A stretch of DNA of 64,000 bases from Virgisporangium aurantiacum (GTDB lineage: Bacteria; Actinomycetota; Actinomycetes; Mycobacteriales; Micromonosporaceae), in the NCBI RefSeq assembly GCF_016863635.1, contig NZ_BOPG01000082.1, positions 1 through 64,000 on the forward strand, in the 5' to 3' direction. Of this stretch, positions 12,934 to 48,751 are shown piece by piece. The notes beneath the pieces are model-generated. The model saw only the letters and a list, made by a program, of their open reading frames with translations. It ran no database searches and was not told where the DNA came from. Each line of letters opens with the position of its first letter. Within the stretch, counting starts at the first letter, position 1. The translations under genes were made by a program, and so were the position numbers.

Positions 12934-13368
12934 TCACCCGGCGCTGGCCAGGTCGTGCGAGTCGTGGTTGACCCAGAACTCGACGATCTGACCGTGCTCG
13001 ATGCGCACGATGTCGACGCCGGACGAGCGGACCACGGTTCCGGACGGGCCCCAGGATCCCGCGACGCGGGTGATGCCGGTGAGCGTCCACCGCCCGACGA
13101 TCATGTGCACGCCGAGCACCGGCCCCACCTGGACCGACAGTTCGAAGTCGACGAACGCCGAGCGCACCGCCTCGGCCCACGCGAGCAGGTCGGACCTGTC
13201 GCCGATGTGCTCCGGCCGGCTGGCCGTGTGCGGGAAGTGCGCGACGAGCGTGGGGGCGAGCAGGTCGTCGGATCGGTTGTCGCCGTTACGGAGCGCCAGC
13301 CACTGCGTCCAGAGCGACAGCCGTTGGTCGACCGAGGGGGCGGTGACGTGGTTCGTGTTGACCGTCAA
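12934..13368 (-). CDS. SnoaL-like/NTF2-fold protein
   Basis: A 144-aa protein with the SnoaL/ester-cyclase-like pattern: NRSDDLLAPTLVAHFPHTAS, then DLLAWAEAVRSAFVDFELSV, then VGRWTLTGITRVAGSWGPSG and a final GVDIVRIEHGQIVEFWVNHD. Such small alpha+beta barrels are isomerases, cyclases or binding proteins; the ligand is unknown. The TTG at 13368 has AAGGGA 8 nt upstream and is the best start. It overlaps the end of the WYL regulator gene by 83 nt, suggesting that the regulator and this protein are expressed together. Confidence 0.75.
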   Translation of the reverse strand: MTVNTNHVTAPSVDQRLSLWTQWLALRNGDNRSDDLLAPTLVAHFPHTASRPEHIGDRSDLLAWAEAVRSAFVDFELSVQVGPVLGVHMIVGRWTLTGITRVAGSWGPSGTVVRSSGVDIVRIEHGQIVEFWVNHDSHDLASAG

Positions 13369-14167
13369 CGCGAAAGTCCCTTCTGTGTGCTTCAGGGGCC
13401 GTTCGACCTATCCTCGCCCCAGGTGAGGGCACCCTCCTGTCCGCATTTCTGACGCTGTCGCCTTCCAGACGCAGCGGTGCCGTGCCGAGGTCGCCCACGT
13501 TCAACCCGGCCAGCGACGCCAGCCGGGGTGCGGCGACCTCCTCGGTGCGGGCGAACTGAACCACCCGGTCGAGCCGGAACTCGCGGATGCCCTCGCGCAG
13601 CCGGCACCACGCGATGAGGTACCAGTGCTCGCCACCGCCGGCCAGCCCGATCGGCTCGACCGCCCGCGACGACAGCCGGCCGTTGCGGTCGTAGTACTCG
13701 ATGGTGACCACCGACCGGCTCCACACCGCCTCTTCGGCCTCGCGCAGCACCTCGACCGGCCCGGCCGTGGCGGCGGCCGGCTGGACCAGGCAGACCCGCC
13801 CGGCCATCGACCGGGTCGCCGCCAGGTCGTGCGGCGCCATGACGGCGACCAACTTGTGCAGTGCCGACCGCGCCGCCGCGGCGAACGGGGTGCCGGCCAT
13901 CGCGCTCAGCGCGACCGCGGTGGCGATCGCCTCCCGGGGCGTGATGTTCAGCGGGGGCAACGTGTACGCGCGATCGAGCACGTAGCCGCCCCGACGCCCG
14001 GGCTCGGCGTAGATCGGCACGCCGGCCTGCTGAAGCGCGCCGATGTCACGGCGGATCGTGCGAACGTCGACCTCGAAGTGCTCGGCCAGCCGGCGCGCGC
14101 TCCGGGCACCGGGACGCACCCGCCGGAGCTCTTCCACCAGCGCATATAGACGATCGGTACGGTTCAC
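13286..14167 (-). CDS. WYL-domain transcriptional regulator (YafY/PafBC type)
   Basis: The 293-aa frame has an N-terminal HTH_11 domain: RLYALVEELRRVRPGARSAR, VDVRTIRRDIGALQQAGVPI and AEPGRRGGYVLD. The WYL domain follows with VVTIEYYDRNGRLSSRAVEP, then GGEHWYLIAWCRLREGIREF (the W-Y-L triad appears as WYLIAW) and RLDRV. The last 50 or so residues, after LGTAPLRLEGDS, are Arg/His-rich, overlap the SnoaL-like gene and do not look like a WYL end; an indel near 13450 may have moved the frame past its natural stop. WYL regulators sense nucleic acid or small ligands; the target here is unknown. Confidence 0.8.
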   Translation of the reverse strand: MNRTDRLYALVEELRRVRPGARSARRLAEHFEVDVRTIRRDIGALQQAGVPIYAEPGRRGGYVLDRAYTLPPLNITPREAIATAVALSAMAGTPFAAAARSALHKLVAVMAPHDLAATRSMAGRVCLVQPAAATAGPVEVLREAEEAVWSRSVVTIEYYDRNGRLSSRAVEPIGLAGGGEHWYLIAWCRLREGIREFRLDRVVQFARTEEVAAPRLASLAGLNVGDLGTAPLRLEGDSVRNADRRVPSPGARIGRTAPEAHRRDFRVDGQHEPRHRPLGRPTAVALDAVAGAP

Positions 14168-38243: not shown

Positions 38244-39500
38244 CTACGCCAGTTCGCGGCGGGGGTTCAGGTGGGCGCGGTCGGCGGCTGCGCGGCCGGA
38301 GCGGTAGCCTTCGGCGTTGCTGACGGTCACCTCGCGGTACACCAGATGAGGGAACGCGGCCCGGAAGCTCTCCTGCACCGCCTCGTCGCGCGCCGCCAGC
38401 ACCGGCAGCAGCGATCCGCCCAGCTCAGCTGCCGCCTCGCGGCCGGCCCGGTCGGAGGCGCCGGCCAGGCGTTCGCCGATGCGGGTGGCGTAGGCGGTCA
38501 GGAATGCCAGCCGGAACGAGCGGGTGCTGGAGCGGCCGTGCCGGTCGCGGCGGGAGCCTTCCGCCGCCAGCGCAGTGGTGGCCTGCACGAGCAGCGACGT
38601 GAAGAGCAACTCCACCAGTTCCAGGTCGGTGGGGAAGCCGAACACGGTGCACGCGCCGAGGGCCTTCGACCACACCGACCGGCACCGGTTGGCCCGCGCC
38701 ACCCGGTCGAGCAGCATCGACTTGGCCATCTCGTACGGCGCCTCGACGCCGATGCGCACACCGGCCGGTTCGGAGGACGTCGACGAGCGGGCGGCGGCGG
38801 CGACCAGGGCGGCGTCGATGCTGTGCCGGGCCATCAGCTCCTGCGCCTTGGCCGTGTAGGTCTCGGCCTCCTCCGGGAACGTCGTCGACTCCGCCTTGGC
38901 GAGCAGGGCACGGATGCGTTCGAGCGCCCGCGTGCTCACGTGGGGGTCCGCGGGCCGGCCACCGCGCACCCGGGGATCGGCGGCGGCCTGCGCGCTGCCG
39001 GGCGGTGGGATCAGCACGGGCAGCGGCGAGAGGCGGCGCAGCATGCCGACGACGTGCAGAGCGGTCCCGATGGCCGCGGCCCGGTCGACACCGCGCCGGT
39101 CGGCCCAGCGGTCGACCCAGTCCTGATCCGGGTCCCACCACAGGTCGGGCACCTGAGCCGCCCAGCGCGGGTCGACGACCGCGGCCGGGTAGTCGCGCAT
39201 CCGGAACGCGACCACGTCGTCGACGATGCTCGCCGCCGCCGGCCCGTGCTCGCGACGCGTGAACCGGGCAAGATCGGCGGGCTGCCAGCCCTGCTGCCAC
39301 AGCGCGTGGACCACGTCGGACAGGGTCGCGAGCACCGCCCGGTCGACCACCGCGCCGCCGCCCGGCAGGCCGAGACCGTTGGCAAGATCCTTGGCGTACG
39401 TCGCGGCCAACGCCCGGTCGCCGAGCACCGCCGGCGAGGACGCGACGGACACGACACCGAGGGCATGCTCGTACGGCGTGGCCTTACGGCGGTCACCCAT
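38244..39500 (-). CDS. DUF2786-domain protein
   Basis: A 418-aa protein. The DUF2786 core lies mid-protein: RALERIRALLAKAESTTFPE, then AETYTAKAQELMARHSIDAA. The N-terminal 170 residues are helical (DVVHALWQQGWQPADLARFT, RADQ-like acidic/Trp-rich VPDLWWDPDQDWVDRW). The C-terminal part has MAKSMLLDRVARANRCRSVW, ELVELLFTSLLVQATTALAA and RSFRLAFLTAYATRIGERLA, which are usual companions of DUF2786. The molecular function is unknown; related proteins occur on phages and chromosomes. It is divergent from htpG with about 80 nt between. Confidence 0.85.
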   Translation of the reverse strand: MGDRRKATPYEHALGVVSVASSPAVLGDRALAATYAKDLANGLGLPGGGAVVDRAVLATLSDVVHALWQQGWQPADLARFTRREHGPAAASIVDDVVAFRMRDYPAAVVDPRWAAQVPDLWWDPDQDWVDRWADRRGVDRAAAIGTALHVVGMLRRLSPLPVLIPPPGSAQAAADPRVRGGRPADPHVSTRALERIRALLAKAESTTFPEEAETYTAKAQELMARHSIDAALVAAAARSSTSSEPAGVRIGVEAPYEMAKSMLLDRVARANRCRSVWSKALGACTVFGFPTDLELVELLFTSLLVQATTALAAEGSRRDRHGRSSTRSFRLAFLTAYATRIGERLAGASDRAGREAAAELGGSLLPVLAARDEAVQESFRAAFPHLVYREVTVSNAEGYRSGRAAADRAHLNPRRELA

Positions 39501-39567: not shown

Positions 39568-39573
39568 TATTGT
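39568..39573 (+). promoter_or_regulatory. -10 element of htpG, leaderless start
   Basis: TATTGT at 39568-39573 lies 7 nt before the GTG at 39581, the spacing of leaderless actinobacterial transcripts. No ribosome binding site precedes the GTG, which agrees. No HAIR or CIRCE heat-shock operator was seen. Confidence 0.4.
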
Positions 39574-39580
39574 GGTTCGC

Positions 39581-41431
39581 GTGAGTAACCAGGAGACGCT
39601 CGAATTTCAGGCTGAGGCGCGCCAGCTGCTGCAGTTGATGGTCCACTCGATCTATTCGAACAAGGACATCTTTCTGCGTGAGCTGATCTCCAACGCCTCC
39701 GACGCGCTCGACAAGCTACGGCTGGAGTCGATGCGCGACAAGGATCTCGACGTGGACACGTCGGATCTGCACATCACGATCGACGTCGACACCGAGGCAC
39801 GCACGCTGACGGTGCGCGACAACGGCATCGGCATGACGCGTGACGACGTGGTCGAGCTGATCGGCACGATCGCGAAGTCGGGCACCGCCGAACTGCTGCG
39901 CAAGCTGAAGGAGTCGAAGGAGACCACGCAGGACTTCATCGGGCAGTTCGGCGTCGGCTTCTACTCGACCTTCATGGTGGCCACGAAGGTGGAACTGGTC
40001 ACGCGGCGGGCCGGCGAGGCCGAGGGCACCCGGTGGGCGTCCGAAGGCGAGGGCACGTACGTCATCGAGACGATCGAGGACGCGCCGCAGGGCACCGCGG
40101 TGACCGTCCACCTGAAGCCGGAGGACAAGGACGACCACCTCTTCGACTACACCGCGGATTGGAAGATCCGCGAGATCGTCAAGAAGTACTCCGACTTCAT
40201 CGCGCACCCCATCCGCCTGTCCGGTGCCGACGAGCCGTTGAACTCGATGAAGGCGTTGTGGGCGCGGCCCCGCAGCGAGGTCGAGCCGGCCGAGTACAAC
40301 GAGTTCTACAAGCACATCAGCCACGACTGGACCGATCCGCTCGAAACCATCCACATGAAGGGTGAGGGTGTCTTCGAGTACGAGGCGCTGCTGTTCATTC
40401 CGGCGCGGGCGCCGTTCGACCTGCACATGCGCGACGGCAAGCGCGGCGTGCAGCTGTACGTGAAGCGCGTCTTCATCATGGACGACTGCGAAGCGCTAAT
40501 GCCGAGCTACCTGCGCTTCATCAAGGGTGTCGTCGACGCGCACGACCTGTCGCTGAACATCTCCCGCGAGATCCTGCAGCACGACCGCCAGATCCAGGTG
40601 GTGCGCCGGCGCCTGGTGAAGAAGGTGCTGTCGACCATCAAGGACCTGCAGGCGAACGACGCCGAGAAGTACAAGACGGTCTGGACGGAGTTCGGCCGGG
40701 CCATCAAGGAGGGCTTCCTCGAAGACTCCGAGAACCAGGACGCTCTGTTGGGCGTCCTCTCGGTGGCCTCGACGAACGACCCCGCCGAGCTCACGACGCT
40801 CGCCCAGTACGTCGAGCGGATGAAGGACGGCCAGAAGGACATCTACTACGTCACCGGCGAGTCCCGCTCGATGATCGAGAACTCGCCGCACCTGGAAGCG
40901 TTCAGGGCCAAGGGCTACGAGGTGCTGATCCTCACCGACCCGGTCGACGAGGTGTGGGTCGAGCGGGTCACCGAGTTCGACGGCAAGCCGTTGCAGTCCA
41001 TCGCGAAGGGCCAGGTCGACCTCGGCTCGCCCGAGGAGGCCGAGTCGGCGAAGGAGGAGTTCGCCGACTTCCTGCCCTGGATCACCGCTGCGCTGGCCGA
41101 CGAGGTCAAGGAGGTGCGGCTGTCGTCGCGGCTGACCACGTCGCCGGCGTGCGTCGTGGGCGACGAGCACGACATGACCCCGACGCTGGAGAAGATGTAC
41201 CGGGCGATGGGCCAGGAGGTGCCGCACACCAAGCGGATCCTGGAGCTCAACCCGGGTCACCCGCTGGTCAAGGGACTGCGGGAGGCGCACGCCGCCAACG
41301 CGGAGAACCCGGCGCTCACGGAGACCGCGGAGTTGCTGCACGGCATGGCGCTGCTGGCCGAGGGCGGTGACCTGAAGGACCCGGCGAAGTTCACCCGCCT
41401 GCTCGCCGACCGCCTCACCGCAGCACTGTAA
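39581..41431 (+). CDS. htpG: Molecular chaperone HtpG (bacterial Hsp90)
   Basis: About 616 aa from GTG 39581 (VSNQETLEFQAEARQLLQLM). The GHKL ATPase domain contains NKDIFLRELISNASDALDKL, then TVRDNGIGMTRDDVVELI, GTIAKSGTAELL and FIGQFGVGFYSTFMVATKVE, which are the nucleotide-binding N, DxGxG and GxxGxG motifs. The middle domain includes LYVKRVFIMDDCEALMPSYL and LSLNISREILQHDRQIQVVR, with the catalytic Arg. The C-terminal dimerisation domain is present and the length is normal. It folds or protects client proteins in the cytoplasm. It is followed by a GC-rich palindromic element. Confidence 0.95.
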   Translation: MSNQETLEFQAEARQLLQLMVHSIYSNKDIFLRELISNASDALDKLRLESMRDKDLDVDTSDLHITIDVDTEARTLTVRDNGIGMTRDDVVELIGTIAKSGTAELLRKLKESKETTQDFIGQFGVGFYSTFMVATKVELVTRRAGEAEGTRWASEGEGTYVIETIEDAPQGTAVTVHLKPEDKDDHLFDYTADWKIREIVKKYSDFIAHPIRLSGADEPLNSMKALWARPRSEVEPAEYNEFYKHISHDWTDPLETIHMKGEGVFEYEALLFIPARAPFDLHMRDGKRGVQLYVKRVFIMDDCEALMPSYLRFIKGVVDAHDLSLNISREILQHDRQIQVVRRRLVKKVLSTIKDLQANDAEKYKTVWTEFGRAIKEGFLEDSENQDALLGVLSVASTNDPAELTTLAQYVERMKDGQKDIYYVTGESRSMIENSPHLEAFRAKGYEVLILTDPVDEVWVERVTEFDGKPLQSIAKGQVDLGSPEEAESAKEEFADFLPWITAALADEVKEVRLSSRLTTSPACVVGDEHDMTPTLEKMYRAMGQEVPHTKRILELNPGHPLVKGLREAHAANAENPALTETAELLHGMALLAEGGDLKDPAKFTRLLADRLTAAL

Positions 41432-41587: not shown

Positions 41588-41661
41588 CGATCATGTGGTG
41601 CCGGGTTCAGAAGTGTCGCACCCATGCGATAGAAATCTTGCGACTCGCCTTTGGAGGTCGC

Positions 41662-42144
41662 ATGGATCCATGGGAACAACTCAGCTCGGTGCCTGTCGTT
41701 CCGCCTGTCCAGCCACGGAAGTTGGCGAAGGCTCCGTTCGTCGAGCTTGCCGACGGTCGCCTGCAGGGCGTGGTGTCGAGCGGGTCAGACATCGAGCGCG
41801 TCTACGTCTCGTCGTTCGCGGCGAAGACGCACGTCTACAGCTGCAGCACCAACAACAACCGGCCGTGCGGCGGCCTGCGCGGCTCGCCGTGCAAGCACCT
41901 GCAGACGTTGCTCGATGAGGCAGTGTTGCAGTACGGGTCCGAGCGCGTCATCCGCTACCTGAACATCGACGCCGAGCCGGGCGCCAGTACCTGGGAGCTC
42001 ATCCGCGCCATGAAGGGGCACCAGGAGTCGGCTCTGGCTGCCACGGTGTTCAGCCGCTTCCTGCACCACCTCGCGTACCTGGAGGTGCCGGGCAGCGTCG
42101 ATCCGTTGCCGGAGTTGCAGTGGTTCCCGGCGGGGGTGCAGTAA
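41662..42144 (+). CDS. SWIM-like zinc-binding protein, first gene of MoxR-VWA operon
   Basis: A 160-aa protein from ATG 41662, with GGAGGT 3 nt upstream. The centre has VYSCSTNNNRPCGGLRGSPC followed by KHLQTLLDEAV. The PCKH end and the helix after it fit a SWIM zinc finger (C-x-C-xn-C-x-H), although the first cysteines are spaced differently. SWIM domains bind DNA or proteins, and SWIM proteins are common in yehLMPQ-like MoxR-VWA loci. The C-terminal third is helical (STWELIRAMKGHQESALAAT). Its TAA overlaps the next start (TAATG). Confidence 0.7.
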   Translation: MDPWEQLSSVPVVPPVQPRKLAKAPFVELADGRLQGVVSSGSDIERVYVSSFAAKTHVYSCSTNNNRPCGGLRGSPCKHLQTLLDEAVLQYGSERVIRYLNIDAEPGASTWELIRAMKGHQESALAATVFSRFLHHLAYLEVPGSVDPLPELQWFPAGVQ

Positions 42145-43547
42145 TGCGTGGAACGGAACTGGCCGCGATCTGCGGGTTCGACGACGCGGGCGTCACGGCC
42201 GCGTTGGATCTGGTCACCGGGTTCGACGAGGCGTTGGTTTCCGGCCTCGCCCGGCTCGGTGAGGACCGGGTGGCCGGGCTCACCGCGCTGGCGGGTGCGG
42301 TCGCGGTCACGCCGCTCGGTGAACGGGTGGCCGAGGCCGTCGACAAGGTGACCGCCGGGTCGATCGCCGACGAGCACCTGGTCGCGTTGGCGGCGGCCCG
42401 TACGGCGTTGCTCGGTTCGGTGCACGACGCGCTGGTCGCCGGCGTCGACACGGCCCTGGGTCGCGAGCGCGCACCGTATGAGGCCGCTCCCGCCGACAAA
42501 GCCGAGGAAGACCTGAACCTGTTGGCCGGCAGCCGGTCGTGGCTGCGGGAGCTGGCGATCGCGGGGTGGCGCGGCGTCGACCACGACCTGGTGTCGGCGG
42601 TCGGGCAGACCGTGCAGGCGTTGCTGGCGCTGCCCGCGAAGGAGAAGCCGTCGCGGCGGCGGCTCGGCGTCCTGCTCGACGGTCTCGCGGCCGAACTGCG
42701 CGCGGCGAGCCCGATCGCCACGATGGAGAAGCTGCCGAAGCGGCGCTGGGCCGACCTGTGGTGCCGGGCGTTGCTGCTGTCGCAGCCCGGCCAGGAGCGT
42801 CCCGAGCCCACGCCGGTTTCCGGCCGGTTGCTGGTGCTCGGTGCCGACATCCACGAGCACGCCACCGCGGTCCAGGTCCAGGTGCACGGGGTGCTGGAGG
42901 GCGGCGACGGGCCGCGGTTGGTGCGCGCGAGCGTCTCGGCGGCGAAGGTCGACACCATCGTCGGTCGGGCGGTGTGGAAGCTGCTCACCCAGCACACGAT
43001 GCTCACCCAGGCGCTCGCCAAGCGCGTCTCGTTGACGCTCACCGACATGCCGCTGCTGCCCAGCGGTGACCTCATCTGGCACGACGACAAGGCCCGTCCG
43101 GCCGAGCCGGCCGATCCGTTCACCACGGCCAAGACGATGCTGTCCACCGCGGTCGCTTCGGCGACGCCGCCGCTGCAACGGCATCCGGCCGGCATCGCCG
43201 AGCCCGTTCTGATCGAGTTCTACACCGTCGAGGGCGACCTGCTGCACCGCGACGGCGGCCCACCCGAGGGGGTTGCGCTGGCGCTCGGCCGGCTGCCCGC
43301 GTCCGGGCCGGTCACCGCCGACCTCGCGCGCAAGTCGTCGGCCTGCATCGGGTTGCTGCGTTGGGACGGCGGCCGGTGGTCCGTGCAGCCGCTGGCGGTG
43401 CGCGTCGAAACGAAGAAGGGCGAGGTCGAGTACCACAACGGCGACTGGGCGCTCGGTCACCCCGACCCGAAGGTGGTCAAGGCCGACGCCAAAGACGACG
43501 CCGTGGGCACGCTGCGCGAACGCGCCGGACGGTTGCTGCGCAAATGA
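42144..43547 (+). CDS. Uncharacterised protein of MoxR-VWA operon
   Basis: A 467-aa protein of unknown family. It is soluble and mostly helical in the first half (GFDDAGVTAALDLVTGFDEA, LRELAIAGWRGVDHDLVSAV), with LPKRRWADLWCRALLLSQPG near 200. A beta-rich part follows (VSGRLLVLGADIHEHATAVQ, VRASVSAAKVDTIVGRAVWK), and the C terminus has SACIGLLRWDGGRWSVQPLA and VEYHNGDWALG. No catalytic motif stands out. Its start overlaps the SWIM-like gene (TAATG) and its end overlaps the VWA gene (ATGA), so it is an integral, co-translated part of the operon. It may be a structural partner or adaptor. Confidence 0.75.
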   Translation: MRGTELAAICGFDDAGVTAALDLVTGFDEALVSGLARLGEDRVAGLTALAGAVAVTPLGERVAEAVDKVTAGSIADEHLVALAAARTALLGSVHDALVAGVDTALGRERAPYEAAPADKAEEDLNLLAGSRSWLRELAIAGWRGVDHDLVSAVGQTVQALLALPAKEKPSRRRLGVLLDGLAAELRAASPIATMEKLPKRRWADLWCRALLLSQPGQERPEPTPVSGRLLVLGADIHEHATAVQVQVHGVLEGGDGPRLVRASVSAAKVDTIVGRAVWKLLTQHTMLTQALAKRVSLTLTDMPLLPSGDLIWHDDKARPAEPADPFTTAKTMLSTAVASATPPLQRHPAGIAEPVLIEFYTVEGDLLHRDGGPPEGVALALGRLPASGPVTADLARKSSACIGLLRWDGGRWSVQPLAVRVETKKGEVEYHNGDWALGHPDPKVVKADAKDDAVGTLRERAGRLLRK

Positions 43548-44863
43548 GCGAACACTCCAACAGGCGACAGGTGCTGTACTGGCGGCTGATCGCCCGGCTG
43601 TTCGACCCCGAGGAGCAGCCCGGGCTGGAGGCGGCGAGCGTCGCGATCGTCGACGACATCGAGCTTCCACAGGCGCTGCTCGACCCCACGGTGTCGGTCG
43701 ACACGATCGTGCAGCGGTTCCCCGACCTGGCCGACGACTTCCGCGGCCTGCTGGCGGAGCACAAAGACGAGTCCACAGAGGACGATGACGTACCCGGCAA
43801 CGACGAGGTGCGCCGGGCGGCGCTCGTCTCGAAGCTGCTGCTGAACGTCTTCAACACCGGGCAGGGCAACGTCAGCGCCGGGCAGTTGACCCGCTGGCAG
43901 CAGGACGCCGGCTGGTTCGAGCAGGCGCTCGGGTTCGAGCCGGGGCACCTGCGCACCGGTCCGGGCAAGAACGAGGGCCTCGGCCAGGTGCTCGGCGGCA
44001 TCGAGGGCGACCTCATCAAACGCATGCGGCTGCGCGAGGTGCTGGGCGACAACAAGCTCGCCGCCCAGTTGACGCCGAGCATGTCGCTCATCGAGCAGCT
44101 GCTGCGCGACAAGCACAACCTGTCCGGGCTGGCGCTGAAGAACGCCAAGGCGCTCATCCGCCGGTTCGTCGACGAGGTGGCGCAGGTGCTGCGCACCCAG
44201 GTGCAGCAGAGCAGCGTCGGCACCATCGACCGGTCGATCCCGCCGAAGCGGGTGTTCCGCAACCTCGACATCGAGCGCACGATCTGGAAGAACCTCACCA
44301 ACTGGAACGCCGCCGACGAGCGTCTCTACGTCGACAAGCTGTTCTACAAGCAGACGGCGAAGCGCACCACGCCGGCGCGGATGATCGTGGTGGTCGACCA
44401 GAGCGGCTCGATGGTCGACGCGATGGTGAACTGCACGATCCTGGCGTCCATCTTCACCGGGCTGCCGAAGGTCGACGTGCACCTGATCGCCTACGACACC
44501 CGGGCGCTCGACCTCACCCCGTGGGTGCACGACCCGTTCGAGGTGCTGCTACGCACGCAACTCGGCGGCGGCACCGACGGGAACGTCGCGATGGCGCTCG
44601 CCCAGCCGAAGGTCGCCGACCCGCGCAACACCGTGCTGGTCTGGATCTCCGACTTCTACGAATGGCGTCCCGAGCCGCTGTTCGCCAGCATGGAGGCGCT
44701 GCACCGCTCGGGTGTGAAGGTGATACCGGTCGGGTCGGTGAGCAGCGGCGGCCAGGCGAGCGTCTACCCGTGGTTCCGCCAGAAGTTCAAAGACATGGGG
44801 ACTCCCGTGCTCTCCGGTCACATCAAGAAGCTCGTCCACGAACTCAAGAACTTCCTCGCTTAG
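43544..44863 (+). CDS. VWA-domain (CoxE/YehP-type) protein
   Basis: A 439-aa protein from ATG 43544. The N-terminal 270 residues are helical (RQVLYWRLIARLFDPEEQPG, LIKRMRLREVLGDNKLAAQL). The C-terminal VWA domain has an intact MIDAS: DQSGSMVDA near 285, Thr in GGGTDGNVAMAL near 345, and Asp in VWISDFYEWRPEP near 368. VWA proteins paired with MoxR ATPases are thought to present a metal-dependent protein surface for remodelling. The operon neighbours are YehM-like and MoxR. Translation is coupled to the gene upstream. Confidence 0.9.
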   Translation: MSEHSNRRQVLYWRLIARLFDPEEQPGLEAASVAIVDDIELPQALLDPTVSVDTIVQRFPDLADDFRGLLAEHKDESTEDDDVPGNDEVRRAALVSKLLLNVFNTGQGNVSAGQLTRWQQDAGWFEQALGFEPGHLRTGPGKNEGLGQVLGGIEGDLIKRMRLREVLGDNKLAAQLTPSMSLIEQLLRDKHNLSGLALKNAKALIRRFVDEVAQVLRTQVQQSSVGTIDRSIPPKRVFRNLDIERTIWKNLTNWNAADERLYVDKLFYKQTAKRTTPARMIVVVDQSGSMVDAMVNCTILASIFTGLPKVDVHLIAYDTRALDLTPWVHDPFEVLLRTQLGGGTDGNVAMALAQPKVADPRNTVLVWISDFYEWRPEPLFASMEALHRSGVKVIPVGSVSSGGQASVYPWFRQKFKDMGTPVLSGHIKKLVHELKNFLA

Positions 44864-44876
44864 GAGAACGGCGAAC

Positions 44877-45989
44877 ATGACTGAGATGCTGCGTGCCCCG
44901 GCCGAGGTGAAGTACGCGGAAGAGCTCGACTGGCTGGAGTCCGTCGACGACTCGCCGAAGCCGTTCTCGTGGCGGCTGAGCCCGAAGATGGTGCGCCTGT
45001 TCATCCTCGGCTCCGAGCGGGCCGACGGCCTCGACCGCGAGATCGGCCAGAAGTGGTACGGCGACCGCAGTTTCGTCGAGCGCAGCATCGTGACGCTCGC
45101 GTCCGACCGCGGTCTGCTGCTGATCGGCGACCCGGGCACCGGCAAGAGCTGGCTGGCCGAACTGCTCGCCGCCGCGATCTGCCGCAACTCCACGCTCGTG
45201 GTGCAGGGCACCGCCGGCACCACCGAAGACCACATCAAGTACTCGTGGAACGTCTCGATGGTGATCGCGCGCGGGCAGAGTCGCGAGTCGATGATCCCGT
45301 CACCGATCATGACCGCGATGGAGAAGGGCGTCATCGGCCGGTTCGAGGAGCTCACCCGCTCCACCAGCGACGTCCAGGACGCGCTGATCTCGATCCTGTC
45401 GGAGAAGTACGTCTCGATCCCGGAACTCGACGACGACAACATCGTCTACGCGCAGCCCGGCTTCTCCATCATCGCCACCGCGAACAGCCGCGACCGCGGT
45501 GTCAACGATCTCTCCTCGGCGCTGAAGCGGCGGTTCAACTTCGTGCGCATCCCGGTGGTCACCAACAAGAAGGCCGAGGCGGAGATCGTCCGGTTCCGCA
45601 CCGTCGAACTGCTGCGCCGGCACCAGATCGAGCTCGAGGTGCCGCCGACGCTGCTCGACATCCTGTTGCAGAGCTTCGCCGACCTGCGGGCCGCCGCCGA
45701 CGCCGCCACCAGCGACGACGAGAAGTTGGAGTCGGCGCTGTCGACCGCCGAGCAGATCGGTGTGCTGGAAGACGCGATCCTGCACAGCCAGTTCTTCGGC
45801 GACCGCACGCTGCGTGCCGGCACGTTGGCGAGTTCGCTGGTCGGGTCGCTGGCCCGGCGCAGCCCGGAGGATCTCGCGATCCTCAACAAGTACTGGCACG
45901 GCGTGGTCGAGCCGCGCAGCAAGAACGACGGCGGCGAGTGGCCGGAGTTCCTCGACGGCGGCAAGCAGACGATCGACACACTTTCATGA
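44877..45989 (+). CDS. MoxR/YehL-type AAA+ ATPase
   Basis: A 370-aa ATPase from ATG 44877, with GGAG 9 nt upstream. Walker A is LLIGDPGTGKSWLAELLAAA near 80. The Walker B region is MEKGVIGRFEELTRSTSDVQ, with the acidic pair EE; the pore-proximal ISILSEKYVSIPELDDDN follows. Sensor 1 is SIIATANSRDRGVNDLSSAL and the arginine finger region LKRRFNFVRIPVVTNKKAEA. This is a MoxR clade ATPase as in yehL. It would use ATP to remodel or load a target with the VWA protein. It is 13 nt from the VWA gene and overlaps DUF5682 by 4 nt. Confidence 0.92.
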   Translation: MTEMLRAPAEVKYAEELDWLESVDDSPKPFSWRLSPKMVRLFILGSERADGLDREIGQKWYGDRSFVERSIVTLASDRGLLLIGDPGTGKSWLAELLAAAICRNSTLVVQGTAGTTEDHIKYSWNVSMVIARGQSRESMIPSPIMTAMEKGVIGRFEELTRSTSDVQDALISILSEKYVSIPELDDDNIVYAQPGFSIIATANSRDRGVNDLSSALKRRFNFVRIPVVTNKKAEAEIVRFRTVELLRRHQIELEVPPTLLDILLQSFADLRAAADAATSDDEKLESALSTAEQIGVLEDAILHSQFFGDRTLRAGTLASSLVGSLARRSPEDLAILNKYWHGVVEPRSKNDGGEWPEFLDGGKQTIDTLS

Positions 45990-48751
45990 CGTTCGACGCC
46001 CTCAGAACTCAGCTTCTCGACGCGGCGGCCGCGTTCAGCGGAAGTCCGGCCGCGCTCGACGGCATCCTCACCGGGATCGTCGACGACGTCGACCGGGCGC
46101 TGCGCGAGGAGCTGGAGATCTTCCCGGTGTGCCACCACTCGCCGGCCTCCGGGCTGGCGATGGTGCGGCGCCTCCGGGAGAAGCAGCCGAAGGTCATCTA
46201 CCTGGAGCTGTGCGAAGACCTGCGCCCGCTGCTCGACGAGCTGCGCAACTGCCGGCTGCCGGTCGCGGTGCAGGCGTTCGCGTCCGACCTCGACCAGTTC
46301 CCCAAGGACTGGGCGCCGTTGAGCGTGGTCGCTCCGATCACCGAGGCGTCGGCCGAGTACCAGGCGATCGCGTACGCACTCGACACGCCGGGCGTCGAAC
46401 TGGTGCTCGTCGACCGGTCGGTCGACCACGTCTTCCAGTGGGAGCCCCGTAAAGAGGAAAAGGCGGAAACACCGGAAGACGACGAGGAAGCCGCGCTGCA
46501 CGGTGACGCCGTCGGCATCGAGATCGGTGACCTGCGCCCGGGTTTCGCCGCGCTGGAGGAGCACCTGCTACGGCACGGCAAGGTGCGGCACTGGTCGGAG
46601 TGGTGGGACCAGTACGTCGAGCAACCGTTGGGCGGGGCCGACTACGCCACCTACCGGCAGGCGATGGTGCTCATCGGCAGCCTGTTCCGCCGGCTGGGCA
46701 CCGACCGTCCGCACAAGGTCCGCATCGACGAGGACCGGGAAAGATACATGTGGACGCGCATGCGCGAGCACCTGGCCACGTCGGGCGTCGACAAGGCCGA
46801 CTGCCTGTACGTGTGCGGCGCCTTCCACGCGGCGAGCCGCGTCGAGGAGTTTGGCACACGCGAAGACGTTCCACAGTGGAAGATCGAACCCCGCACGAAC
46901 ACCCGCTGGCTCTACGGGCTGATCCCGTCGAGCTACTCGGCGATCGAGGCGCAGTTCGGGTTGGCGTCCGGCTCGGTGTCGATCGCCGCCGCCTCGTACG
47001 CGAAGTCGGTGACGCGGGGTGGCCTCAAGCCGTTCCGCCTGGCCGGCCAGCAGGGCAAGACGAGCAAGGCCAAGGCGCTCCCGCCACCGGCGAAAGACAA
47101 GCCGGTGAAAGACGAGCTCACCGGGTTCCTGTCGGCACCCCCGGCACTCGACCAGCTCGACGAGGAGGAACTGCTCGGCTGGTGCGTCGAGATCGTGCGG
47201 CTGGCCCGGAAGAACGGCTACCTGTCCAGCACCGCCGACGCGATCGCCATCTTCGAGACGTCGATCCTGCTCGCCGGGATGCGCGGCCGGGCCCGGCCGA
47301 CCCCGTACGACTTCCAGGACGCGGCGATCACCTGCATCGAGAAGGACGCCGTCCCGGGACGGCGCGACGTGCGACGGCTGTGCGAGATCCTGCTCGGCGG
47401 CGACCGCGTCGGCCAGGTCGGCTACGACGCGCTGCCGCCGCTGGCCCGCGACGTCTACGACCGGCTCGCGCCGCTGCAACTGAACCTCCAGCAGCGCACG
47501 CTGCGCCGCGCCCTGCTCGACTTCAACGCCGAGCCGCACCTGCGTCCGGTATCCAACCTGTTGTGGATGCTGAAGTACCTGCTGCCCGACCACGCCGTAC
47601 GCCCGATCATGGGCTCGCGCGGGCTCGGTGAGCAGTCGATCCAGGAGAGCTGGGACCTCGACATCGCCCGCAACCAGCGGCAGATCATCGAGCTGGGCTA
47701 CGAGGGCGTCACGGTGGAGCAGGTGCTCGAACAGCGCCTGCGCCGCGAGGTCTGGAAACCGAAGGCCACGGCCGCCGTCGCGCTCAAGGCCGTCGAAGAC
47801 GCGACGGTGTTCCTCGGTGGCAGAAGATTCGTCGACGAGCTGGGCGCGCGGGCCGTCGACCTGCTCGCCGGCGAGCGGACCGTCGACGACGCACCCGAGG
47901 TGCTCAAGCGCATCCGTCGGCTGCTGGCGCACTACCGCGCCACCGAGCCCACGTTGCCGGCATGGTGCGAAGCGTTCGTCACCCGGGGCTATGCCCACTA
48001 CTGCACGCTGCTGCCGACGTCCTTTGTGGACGAAGACACCGGTGTGCGCCAGGTCGCCGCGATGCTCGGGTTCCTCTTCTCCATGGAGAGCCTGGCGCTG
48101 TCGCTCGGCTGCGACCGCTCGCAACTGGAACTGGCGGTGAAGCAGTCGCACCCCGAGTCGCCGGCAAAGGTGGCGCTGCTGTGGGCCGCCAACAACCAGT
48201 TGGGCCTGCTGCCGCTGTCCGAACTCCGCGAACGGTGCGACGCCCTGCTCGGCAACCCGCTGGTGGTGCCGTCGTTCCCGCAGTACCTGAGCGGTTTCGT
48301 GCAGGCACTGGAACCGGCGCCGGTGCTGAGCGGGTTCGTGGTCGAGCTGTTGTCCAAGGCGTTCGCCCGGCTGCCCGACCGCGTACTGCTGCCGTGGCTG
48401 CCGACGCTGATCACCACGTTCAAGCAGCAGGCCGGCGAGCTGGTGCCGGTGCTGATCCGCGAGGCGGCCCGTACGTTCCCGGCCACCCTGCCGGCCGTCG
48501 ACGCCTGGACCCCGCCCTGGGAAGCGGGGCCGGCCCCGAAGCCGGCCGTCGCGGCGCAACCCGCCGGCCCGGTGACGGATCTCCTCCGCGCCCACCCCGA
48601 GCCGCTGAACGCCCTGGCCGCCCTGCTCGGCTGCCCGACGGAGTGGCAGGACGACCCGCCGGCTCAGGGCGCCACCCCACCGGAGCTGATCACCCTGCTG
48701 ACGAACCACCCCGACACCGCAAGGGAGCTGGCCGACCTCCTACGCGCATAG
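45986..48751 (+). CDS. DUF5682 (YehM-like) protein
   Basis: A 921-aa protein from ATG 45986, which overlaps the ATPase stop. The N-terminal domain has IFPVCHHSPASGLAMVRRLR (an HH-S-P motif near 46) and VIYLELCEDLRPLLDELRNC, recalling the EreA/ChaN/TraB-like hydrolase fold, then ADCLYVCGAFHAASRVEEF with another His. The rest is a long alpha-helical array (ELLGWCVEIVRLARKNGYLS, PLQLNLQQRTLRRALLDFN, LRRLLAHYRATEPTLPAWCE). The C-terminal 120 residues are Pro/Ala-rich. DUF5682 is the standard partner of MoxR plus VWA plus SWIM genes. The HH motif may be catalytic but is untested. Confidence 0.85.
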   Translation: MTFDALRTQLLDAAAAFSGSPAALDGILTGIVDDVDRALREELEIFPVCHHSPASGLAMVRRLREKQPKVIYLELCEDLRPLLDELRNCRLPVAVQAFASDLDQFPKDWAPLSVVAPITEASAEYQAIAYALDTPGVELVLVDRSVDHVFQWEPRKEEKAETPEDDEEAALHGDAVGIEIGDLRPGFAALEEHLLRHGKVRHWSEWWDQYVEQPLGGADYATYRQAMVLIGSLFRRLGTDRPHKVRIDEDRERYMWTRMREHLATSGVDKADCLYVCGAFHAASRVEEFGTREDVPQWKIEPRTNTRWLYGLIPSSYSAIEAQFGLASGSVSIAAASYAKSVTRGGLKPFRLAGQQGKTSKAKALPPPAKDKPVKDELTGFLSAPPALDQLDEEELLGWCVEIVRLARKNGYLSSTADAIAIFETSILLAGMRGRARPTPYDFQDAAITCIEKDAVPGRRDVRRLCEILLGGDRVGQVGYDALPPLARDVYDRLAPLQLNLQQRTLRRALLDFNAEPHLRPVSNLLWMLKYLLPDHAVRPIMGSRGLGEQSIQESWDLDIARNQRQIIELGYEGVTVEQVLEQRLRREVWKPKATAAVALKAVEDATVFLGGRRFVDELGARAVDLLAGERTVDDAPEVLKRIRRLLAHYRATEPTLPAWCEAFVTRGYAHYCTLLPTSFVDEDTGVRQVAAMLGFLFSMESLALSLGCDRSQLELAVKQSHPESPAKVALLWAANNQLGLLPLSELRERCDALLGNPLVVPSFPQYLSGFVQALEPAPVLSGFVVELLSKAFARLPDRVLLPWLPTLITTFKQQAGELVPVLIREAARTFPATLPAVDAWTPPWEAGPAPKPAVAAQPAGPVTDLLRAHPEPLNALAALLGCPTEWQDDPPAQGATPPELITLLTNHPDTARELADLLRA

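Follow-up and report, generated by a model that had tools for sequence, protein, structure and literature searches.

A conserved five-gene MoxR-VWA-DUF5682 operon of actinomycetes with a predicted PafBC-type DNA-damage promoter

Operons resembling Escherichia coli yehLMPQ span a range of bacteria between E. coli and Deinococcus; none of the papers that we found assigns them a function. In E. coli, the operon (with yehI upstream) includes genes for a MoxR-type ATPase, a DUF5682 protein, a VWA protein, and YehQ, a single SWIM protein of 614 amino acids (aa). Deinococcus ddrTUVWX (Deide_18730-18690), a five-gene operon whose function is unassigned, begins with a SWIM gene, ends with a CoxE-like VWA gene, and is radiation-induced in an IrrE-dependent manner as part of the IrrE/DdrO response (PMC5552922). 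MoxR and VWA proteins also form the core of the MoxR-vWA ternary conflict systems (VMAP, iSTAND, FtsH, and beta-propeller types) and of the NorQD/CoxDE chaperones.

Our analyses concern a 64,000-nucleotide stretch of the Virgisporangium aurantiacum genome (the window; contig NZ_BOPG01000082.1, positions 1 to 64,000), in which five genes lie together on the plus strand at 41662-48751 (Table 1), where an earlier note, made from the sequence alone, had placed them. That note had also counted four of five junctions as overlaps or near-overlaps; overlaps are indeed present, but five genes have only four junctions, of which three overlap, and the VWA-MoxR junction is a 13-bp gap containing a GGAGAA ribosome site. 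The parallel that it drew with yehLMPQ stands, in that a MoxR, a DUF5682, a CoxE-type VWA, and a SWIM-type gene occur together in both, the SWIM part of the window operon being only SWIM-like. Identity to the E. coli proteins is 40% for MoxR and 31% for VWA but only about 20% for DUF5682, and profile comparison found no E. coli counterpart of the 467-aa protein. The possibility that the SWIM-like and 467-aa proteins represent a split YehQ was rejected, as profile-profile comparison with three SWIM-protein families and DUF5691 gave it no support (best probability for the 467-aa protein, <2%).

Table 1 Features of the five-gene operon and its upstream element in the window
Feature	Coordinates	Strand	Description
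PafBC/RecA-NDp-type promoter element	41613-41635	+	GTGTCGCACCCATGCGATAGAAA (TGTCR-N11-TA core); 49 bp 5' of first start codon
SWIM-like protein gene	41662-42144	+	160 aa; invariant C61, C69, C77, H79; no Pfam match
Orphan 467-aa protein gene	42144-43547	+	1-bp overlap with SWIM-like gene; helical residues 1-212, beta-rich 223-431
VWA (CoxE-type) gene	43544-44863	+	439 aa; 4-bp overlap with 467-aa gene; MIDAS DxSxS at 285, GGGT at 341, SD at 369-370
MoxR-type AAA+ ATPase gene	44877-45989	+	370 aa; Walker A GDPGTGKS at 84, Walker B-like RFEE, ATAN at 200, LKRRF at 216
DUF5682 gene	45986-48751	+	921 aa; 4-bp overlap with MoxR gene; N-domain and helical-repeat C-part

The MoxR protein was used to scan 84,980 genomes, and the best 80 loci, all from actinomycetes, served as the homologous set. 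The five genes occur in identical order and orientation in 80 of these 80 loci, which, as the top matches of one scan dominated by Nonomuraea, are not independent. The overlaps recur as well (SWIM-467 in 70 of 80 loci, MoxR-DUF5682 in 60 of 77), indicating that the operon is not a chance arrangement. Across the best 80 loci, identity to the window is highest for MoxR (88 to 97%), followed by DUF5682 (68 to 88%), VWA (64 to 92%), the SWIM-like protein (58 to 88%), and the 467-aa protein (49 to 86%). When the flanking genes were clustered into families, none was found in more than 8 of the 80 loci, which indicates that the five genes are the entire conserved unit and form a self-contained machine. 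The assembly analyzed is listed with 9% contamination; in Virgisporangium ochraceum the operon is present too, with a MoxR 97% identical to that of the window, and is flanked by htpG and proA.

Three further operons combining DUF5682, MoxR, VWA, and SWIM genes occur in the same genome, and each is of a different type. Type A (SWIM-DUF5691-MoxR-DUF5682-VWA; contig C48) is also found in Deinococcus, Rhizobium, and Methylosinus and on Hymenobacter plasmids; in type B (contig C63), a large protein that Pfam does not recognize is followed by MoxR, a DUF5682-VWA fusion, and SWIM; and type C is the E. coli yeh type. The MoxR tree sets the window type apart from all others on a long branch with full support (100), and by this phylogeny it is placed as a deeply separate fourth lineage of such operons. 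As a type A operon, ddrTUVWX (its gene content taken here from the relative Deinococcus taeanensis, not from Deinococcus deserti) resembles the window operon in its SWIM-type first gene, AAA ATPase, DUF5682, and CoxE-like VWA, but differs in having DUF5691 in second position, another gene order, a larger SWIM protein with a standard CxC finger, and another regulator, and MoxR trees part the two by the same long branch (support, 100). In D. taeanensis the order is SWIM-DUF5691-AAA-DUF5682-VWA, and a palindrome-like RDRM candidate lies 36 bp 5' of the first gene.

Because ddrTUVWX is radiation-induced, the actinomycete loci were tested for DNA-damage promoters. A strict consensus of 12 scored positions, TTGTCRGTG-N8-TANNNT, which reportedly goes back to Gamulin in 2004 as RecA-NDp and which was validated here through recA promoters only, was applied to 80 upstream regions (the window and 79 loci). 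At least 11 of the 12 positions are matched in 29 of the 80 regions, versus 3 of 7485 control windows from the same loci. A relaxed core, TGTCR-N11-TA, is present in 58 of 80 loci, the window included, versus 25 of 7485 control windows, and among the best 80 loci it is carried by about 16 genera. Only the spacing of 11 is enriched, with spacings of 7 to 10 and 12 to 15 yielding 0 to 2 loci each. In a separately gathered set, some species of which may overlap with the best 80, the core occurs in 16 of 21 loci, and a Streptomyces megaplasmid in this set has a perfect match to the element. The window copy is degenerate (GTGTCGCAC ... TAGAAA) and follows the spelling local to the Micromonosporaceae, its full string being unique in the 14-Mb genome. 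The full core is missing from 22 of the 80 loci, several of which retain TGTCGTACC with CAT replacing TA. In Micromonospora loci, TGTCGTA is kept and CATGAT stands where the TA of the -10 is expected, which suggests that the promoter has been altered or lost in this genus. Upstream of the best 80 loci, LexA/SOS boxes are nearly absent, and the HAIR box and two sigma-factor patterns are absent or rare.

The same element served as a positive control at recA, where it is present 5' of the gene in all 17 scorable Micromonosporaceae, this genome included, and in 27 of 30 other actinomycete genomes. Its spelling is specific to the family: the recA element is mostly TGTCRNACC in the Micromonosporaceae, as is that of the operon in many members of this family, and TGTCRGTG in many others, with Streptomyces-like genomes having the TGTCAGTG spelling at recA and at the operon alike. 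Because the local spelling differs, the canonical GTG form is all but missing from this genome (3 matches), and such family-specific spelling could cause searches that use the mycobacterial motif to miss members of the regulon. RecA-NDp is the target of PafBC (PMC6789036, PMC8223512). The mycobacterial PafBC motif has been described as not conserved in Streptomyces venezuelae (PMC9380542), whereas RecA-NDp promoters have been reported in Streptomyces (PMC5087735), and our recA results agree with the latter and not the former. This genome has a pafB-pafC-like tandem pair of WYL genes followed by tatA-tatC on contig C12, its identity as PafBC judged from gene order and length only. Another WYL-domain regulator, distinct from this pair, is encoded in the window at 13286-14167, about 28 kb upstream of the operon.

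Membership of the operon in the PafBC regulon is thus well supported in silico, and because its promoter matches the one at recA, the operon is probably made upon DNA damage. The element also appears immediately 5' of the first gene in actinomycete type A operons, including the copy on contig C48 (a PafBC-type element 28 bp 5' of the first gene). Since it precedes operons of both the window type and actinomycete type A, the predicted DNA-damage promoter is common to two deeply separate lineages. This finding places them, in actinomycetes, in a biological context that can be tested, and it connects the five radiation-induced Deinococcus genes, whose function is unassigned, with a wider family. 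Simple scans found no LexA box upstream of E. coli yehL, and none was detected upstream of the Rhizobium and Methylosinus type A operons. The promoter lies beyond what the earlier note had seen and changes the likely biology of the operon; it also adds a likeness to ddrTUVWX, in that both would belong to a DNA-damage regulon (IrrE/DdrO there, a PafBC-type element here).

Among the encoded proteins, three have clear Pfam assignments: VWA_CoxE (95 bits), AAA_5 (126 bits), and DUF5682 (PF18934; 119.5 bits, against a curated cut-off of 26). The proposed MoxR and VWA pair is confirmed, with Walker, sensor, and MIDAS motifs intact on inspection. For the SWIM-like and 467-aa proteins, Pfam gives no match even at an E value of 1, nor do PADLOC and PHROGs, and the sole NCBIfam line for the SWIM-like protein is a sub-cut-off thioredoxin match. 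A system-level match to the five proteins was absent from PADLOC, NCBIfam, and PHROGs, and a PDB sequence search with all five returned nothing meaningful. The name "SWIM-like" is only partly apt: a Cys/His finger is invariant, but as C-x7-C-x7-C-x-H instead of CxCxnCxH, and the protein lacks a match to the Pfam SWIM zinc finger (PF04434) at an E value of 1. Only the finger of the type A SWIM protein aligns with it, and weakly.

The HH-S-P motif that had been noticed in DUF5682 is present and conserved. Ten residues (H50, H51, P53, E74, E124, D143, R251, E252, G278, and H281) do not vary among 15 representatives, and 24 positions of the N-domain are invariant over eight members from the four operon types. 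Maintained despite an identity of only about 20% between the DUF5682 proteins of different types, these residues suggest a shared, working putative active site. For the N-domain, and the question of an EreA/TraB/ChaN-like Tiki fold, no PDB sequence match was obtained. The structural model of DUF5682 is poor (pLDDT, 71.9), and Foldseek returned helical-repeat noise with nothing at an E value of <0.001; for the low-confidence model of the N-domain, a single structural match stands out, to 7w5z chain E (Z, 8.7; rmsd, 4.4; 200 residues). Our literature search found no paper on DUF5682.

That the 467-aa protein is without a known family, as had been claimed, agrees with the empty database searches and with Foldseek, which gave no significant PDB match (best E value, 0.02). 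Its model is confident (pLDDT, 90.7), with helices up to residue 212 followed by a beta-rich half of beta-beta-beta-alpha-beta-beta order. Over residues 219 to 431, tandem OB proteins (HIN domains, RPA, SSB, and LEF-3) come up repeatedly, with Z scores of 4.5 to 5.5, among unrelated helical chains, and the VIA Z scores of the OB-like matches are weak (4.5 to 6). The C-terminal half is possibly a tandem of OB-like folds, which we offer as a lead, not as proof.

Taken together, we favor, with a probability of about 0.68, the reading that the operon encodes a DNA-damage-induced AAA+ protein-remodeling machine. As for recA, transcription of the operon would start at a RecA-NDp promoter once PafBC senses single-stranded DNA, and this step is well supported in silico. 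From the families involved, a ring of MoxR ATPases would work via the VWA protein, whose MIDAS metal site is intact. More speculatively, the SWIM-like finger and the 467-aa protein may recognize nucleic acid or damaged nucleoprotein and deliver it to the ring, where DUF5682, which combines a putative active site of conserved HH/E/GxxH residues with a long arm of helical repeats, might hydrolyze or strip the substrate. Our best guess at the role is that proteins stuck on damaged DNA are removed or processed, such that the machine would aid survival after genotoxic stress and would not be bound to one metabolic enzyme. A wider proposal, which we hold only tentatively and regard as somewhat doubtful, is that this is a new kind of machine common across phyla, in which an AAA+ ring acts with a VWA protein, a module that reads nucleic acid, and a hydrolase of the DUF5682 family to clear proteins from damaged DNA and which actinomycetes (through PafBC) and Deinococcus (through IrrE/DdrO) wired independently into their regulons.

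The operon could instead be an anti-phage or biological-conflict MoxR-vWA system for which DNA damage is the infection signal, a reading that we consider unlikely. A counter-invader role has been proposed for MoxR-vWA ternary systems (PMC7159879, PMC12839542), and single-stranded-DNA-sensing WYL regulators are also linked to phage defense (PMC10693628). The occurrence of the operon is patchy within families, the 467-aa protein being present in 21 of 61 relatives, and some operon copies reside on megaplasmids. Across the phylum, 6 of 396 genomes have the 467-aa protein, as do 5 plasmid records. But none of 50,697 phage records contains this protein and a single IMG/VR contig does, the set has no PADLOC system match, and the flanks give just generic kinase and hydrolase matches. 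MoxR, moreover, is 88 to 97% identical across families, unlike arms-race genes, and the VWA protein has no extra effector domain in Pfam. Whereas the MoxR and VWA core is shared with the ternary systems, the window operon is conserved and not diversifying, and their third components and VWA effector were not found: Pfam detects none of their domains in the five proteins (although iSTAND and VMAP can diverge too far for Pfam to recognize them), and bpMoxR reaches 12 bits against a cut-off of 27. The earlier hint of biological conflict is therefore not supported. In the IMG/VR contig (IMGVR_UViG_2772190730_000001), the operon sits at the contig edge and has the promoter element.

We regard it as quite improbable that the operon encodes a NorQD/CoxDE-like chaperone that inserts a metal or cofactor into a dedicated enzyme, even though a CoxE-type VWA and MoxR constitute a metal-insertion chaperone pair (for NorQD, PMC9976466 and PMC13036017) and the chemistry may be alike. 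No target metalloenzyme is encoded nearby, as the flanks of the best 80 loci share no gene in more than 8; the promoter is of a DNA-damage regulon type; and the SWIM-like, orphan, and DUF5682 proteins are extra, DUF5682 and SWIM partners being foreign to those pathways. Both this reading and that of a conflict system fit less well than a damage-induced machine because the flanks are ordinary, phage copies are near-absent, MoxR shows extreme conservation, and the operon has no linked target enzyme. It is barely plausible that the operon encodes a general stress chaperone sharing the regulation of htpG (Hsp90), which is the adjacent upstream gene, on the same strand, in the window (39572-41431) and also in five of the best 80 loci: nearly all loci lack htpG in the flank, the 230 bp between htpG and the operon contain a promoter of the operon's own, and no HAIR heat-shock box was found upstream. 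Because only a few of the 80 loci share it, the htpG neighborhood is probably a lineage feature. The window also has, on the minus strand at 38244-39500, a gene for a protein with DUF2786 and DUF7168.
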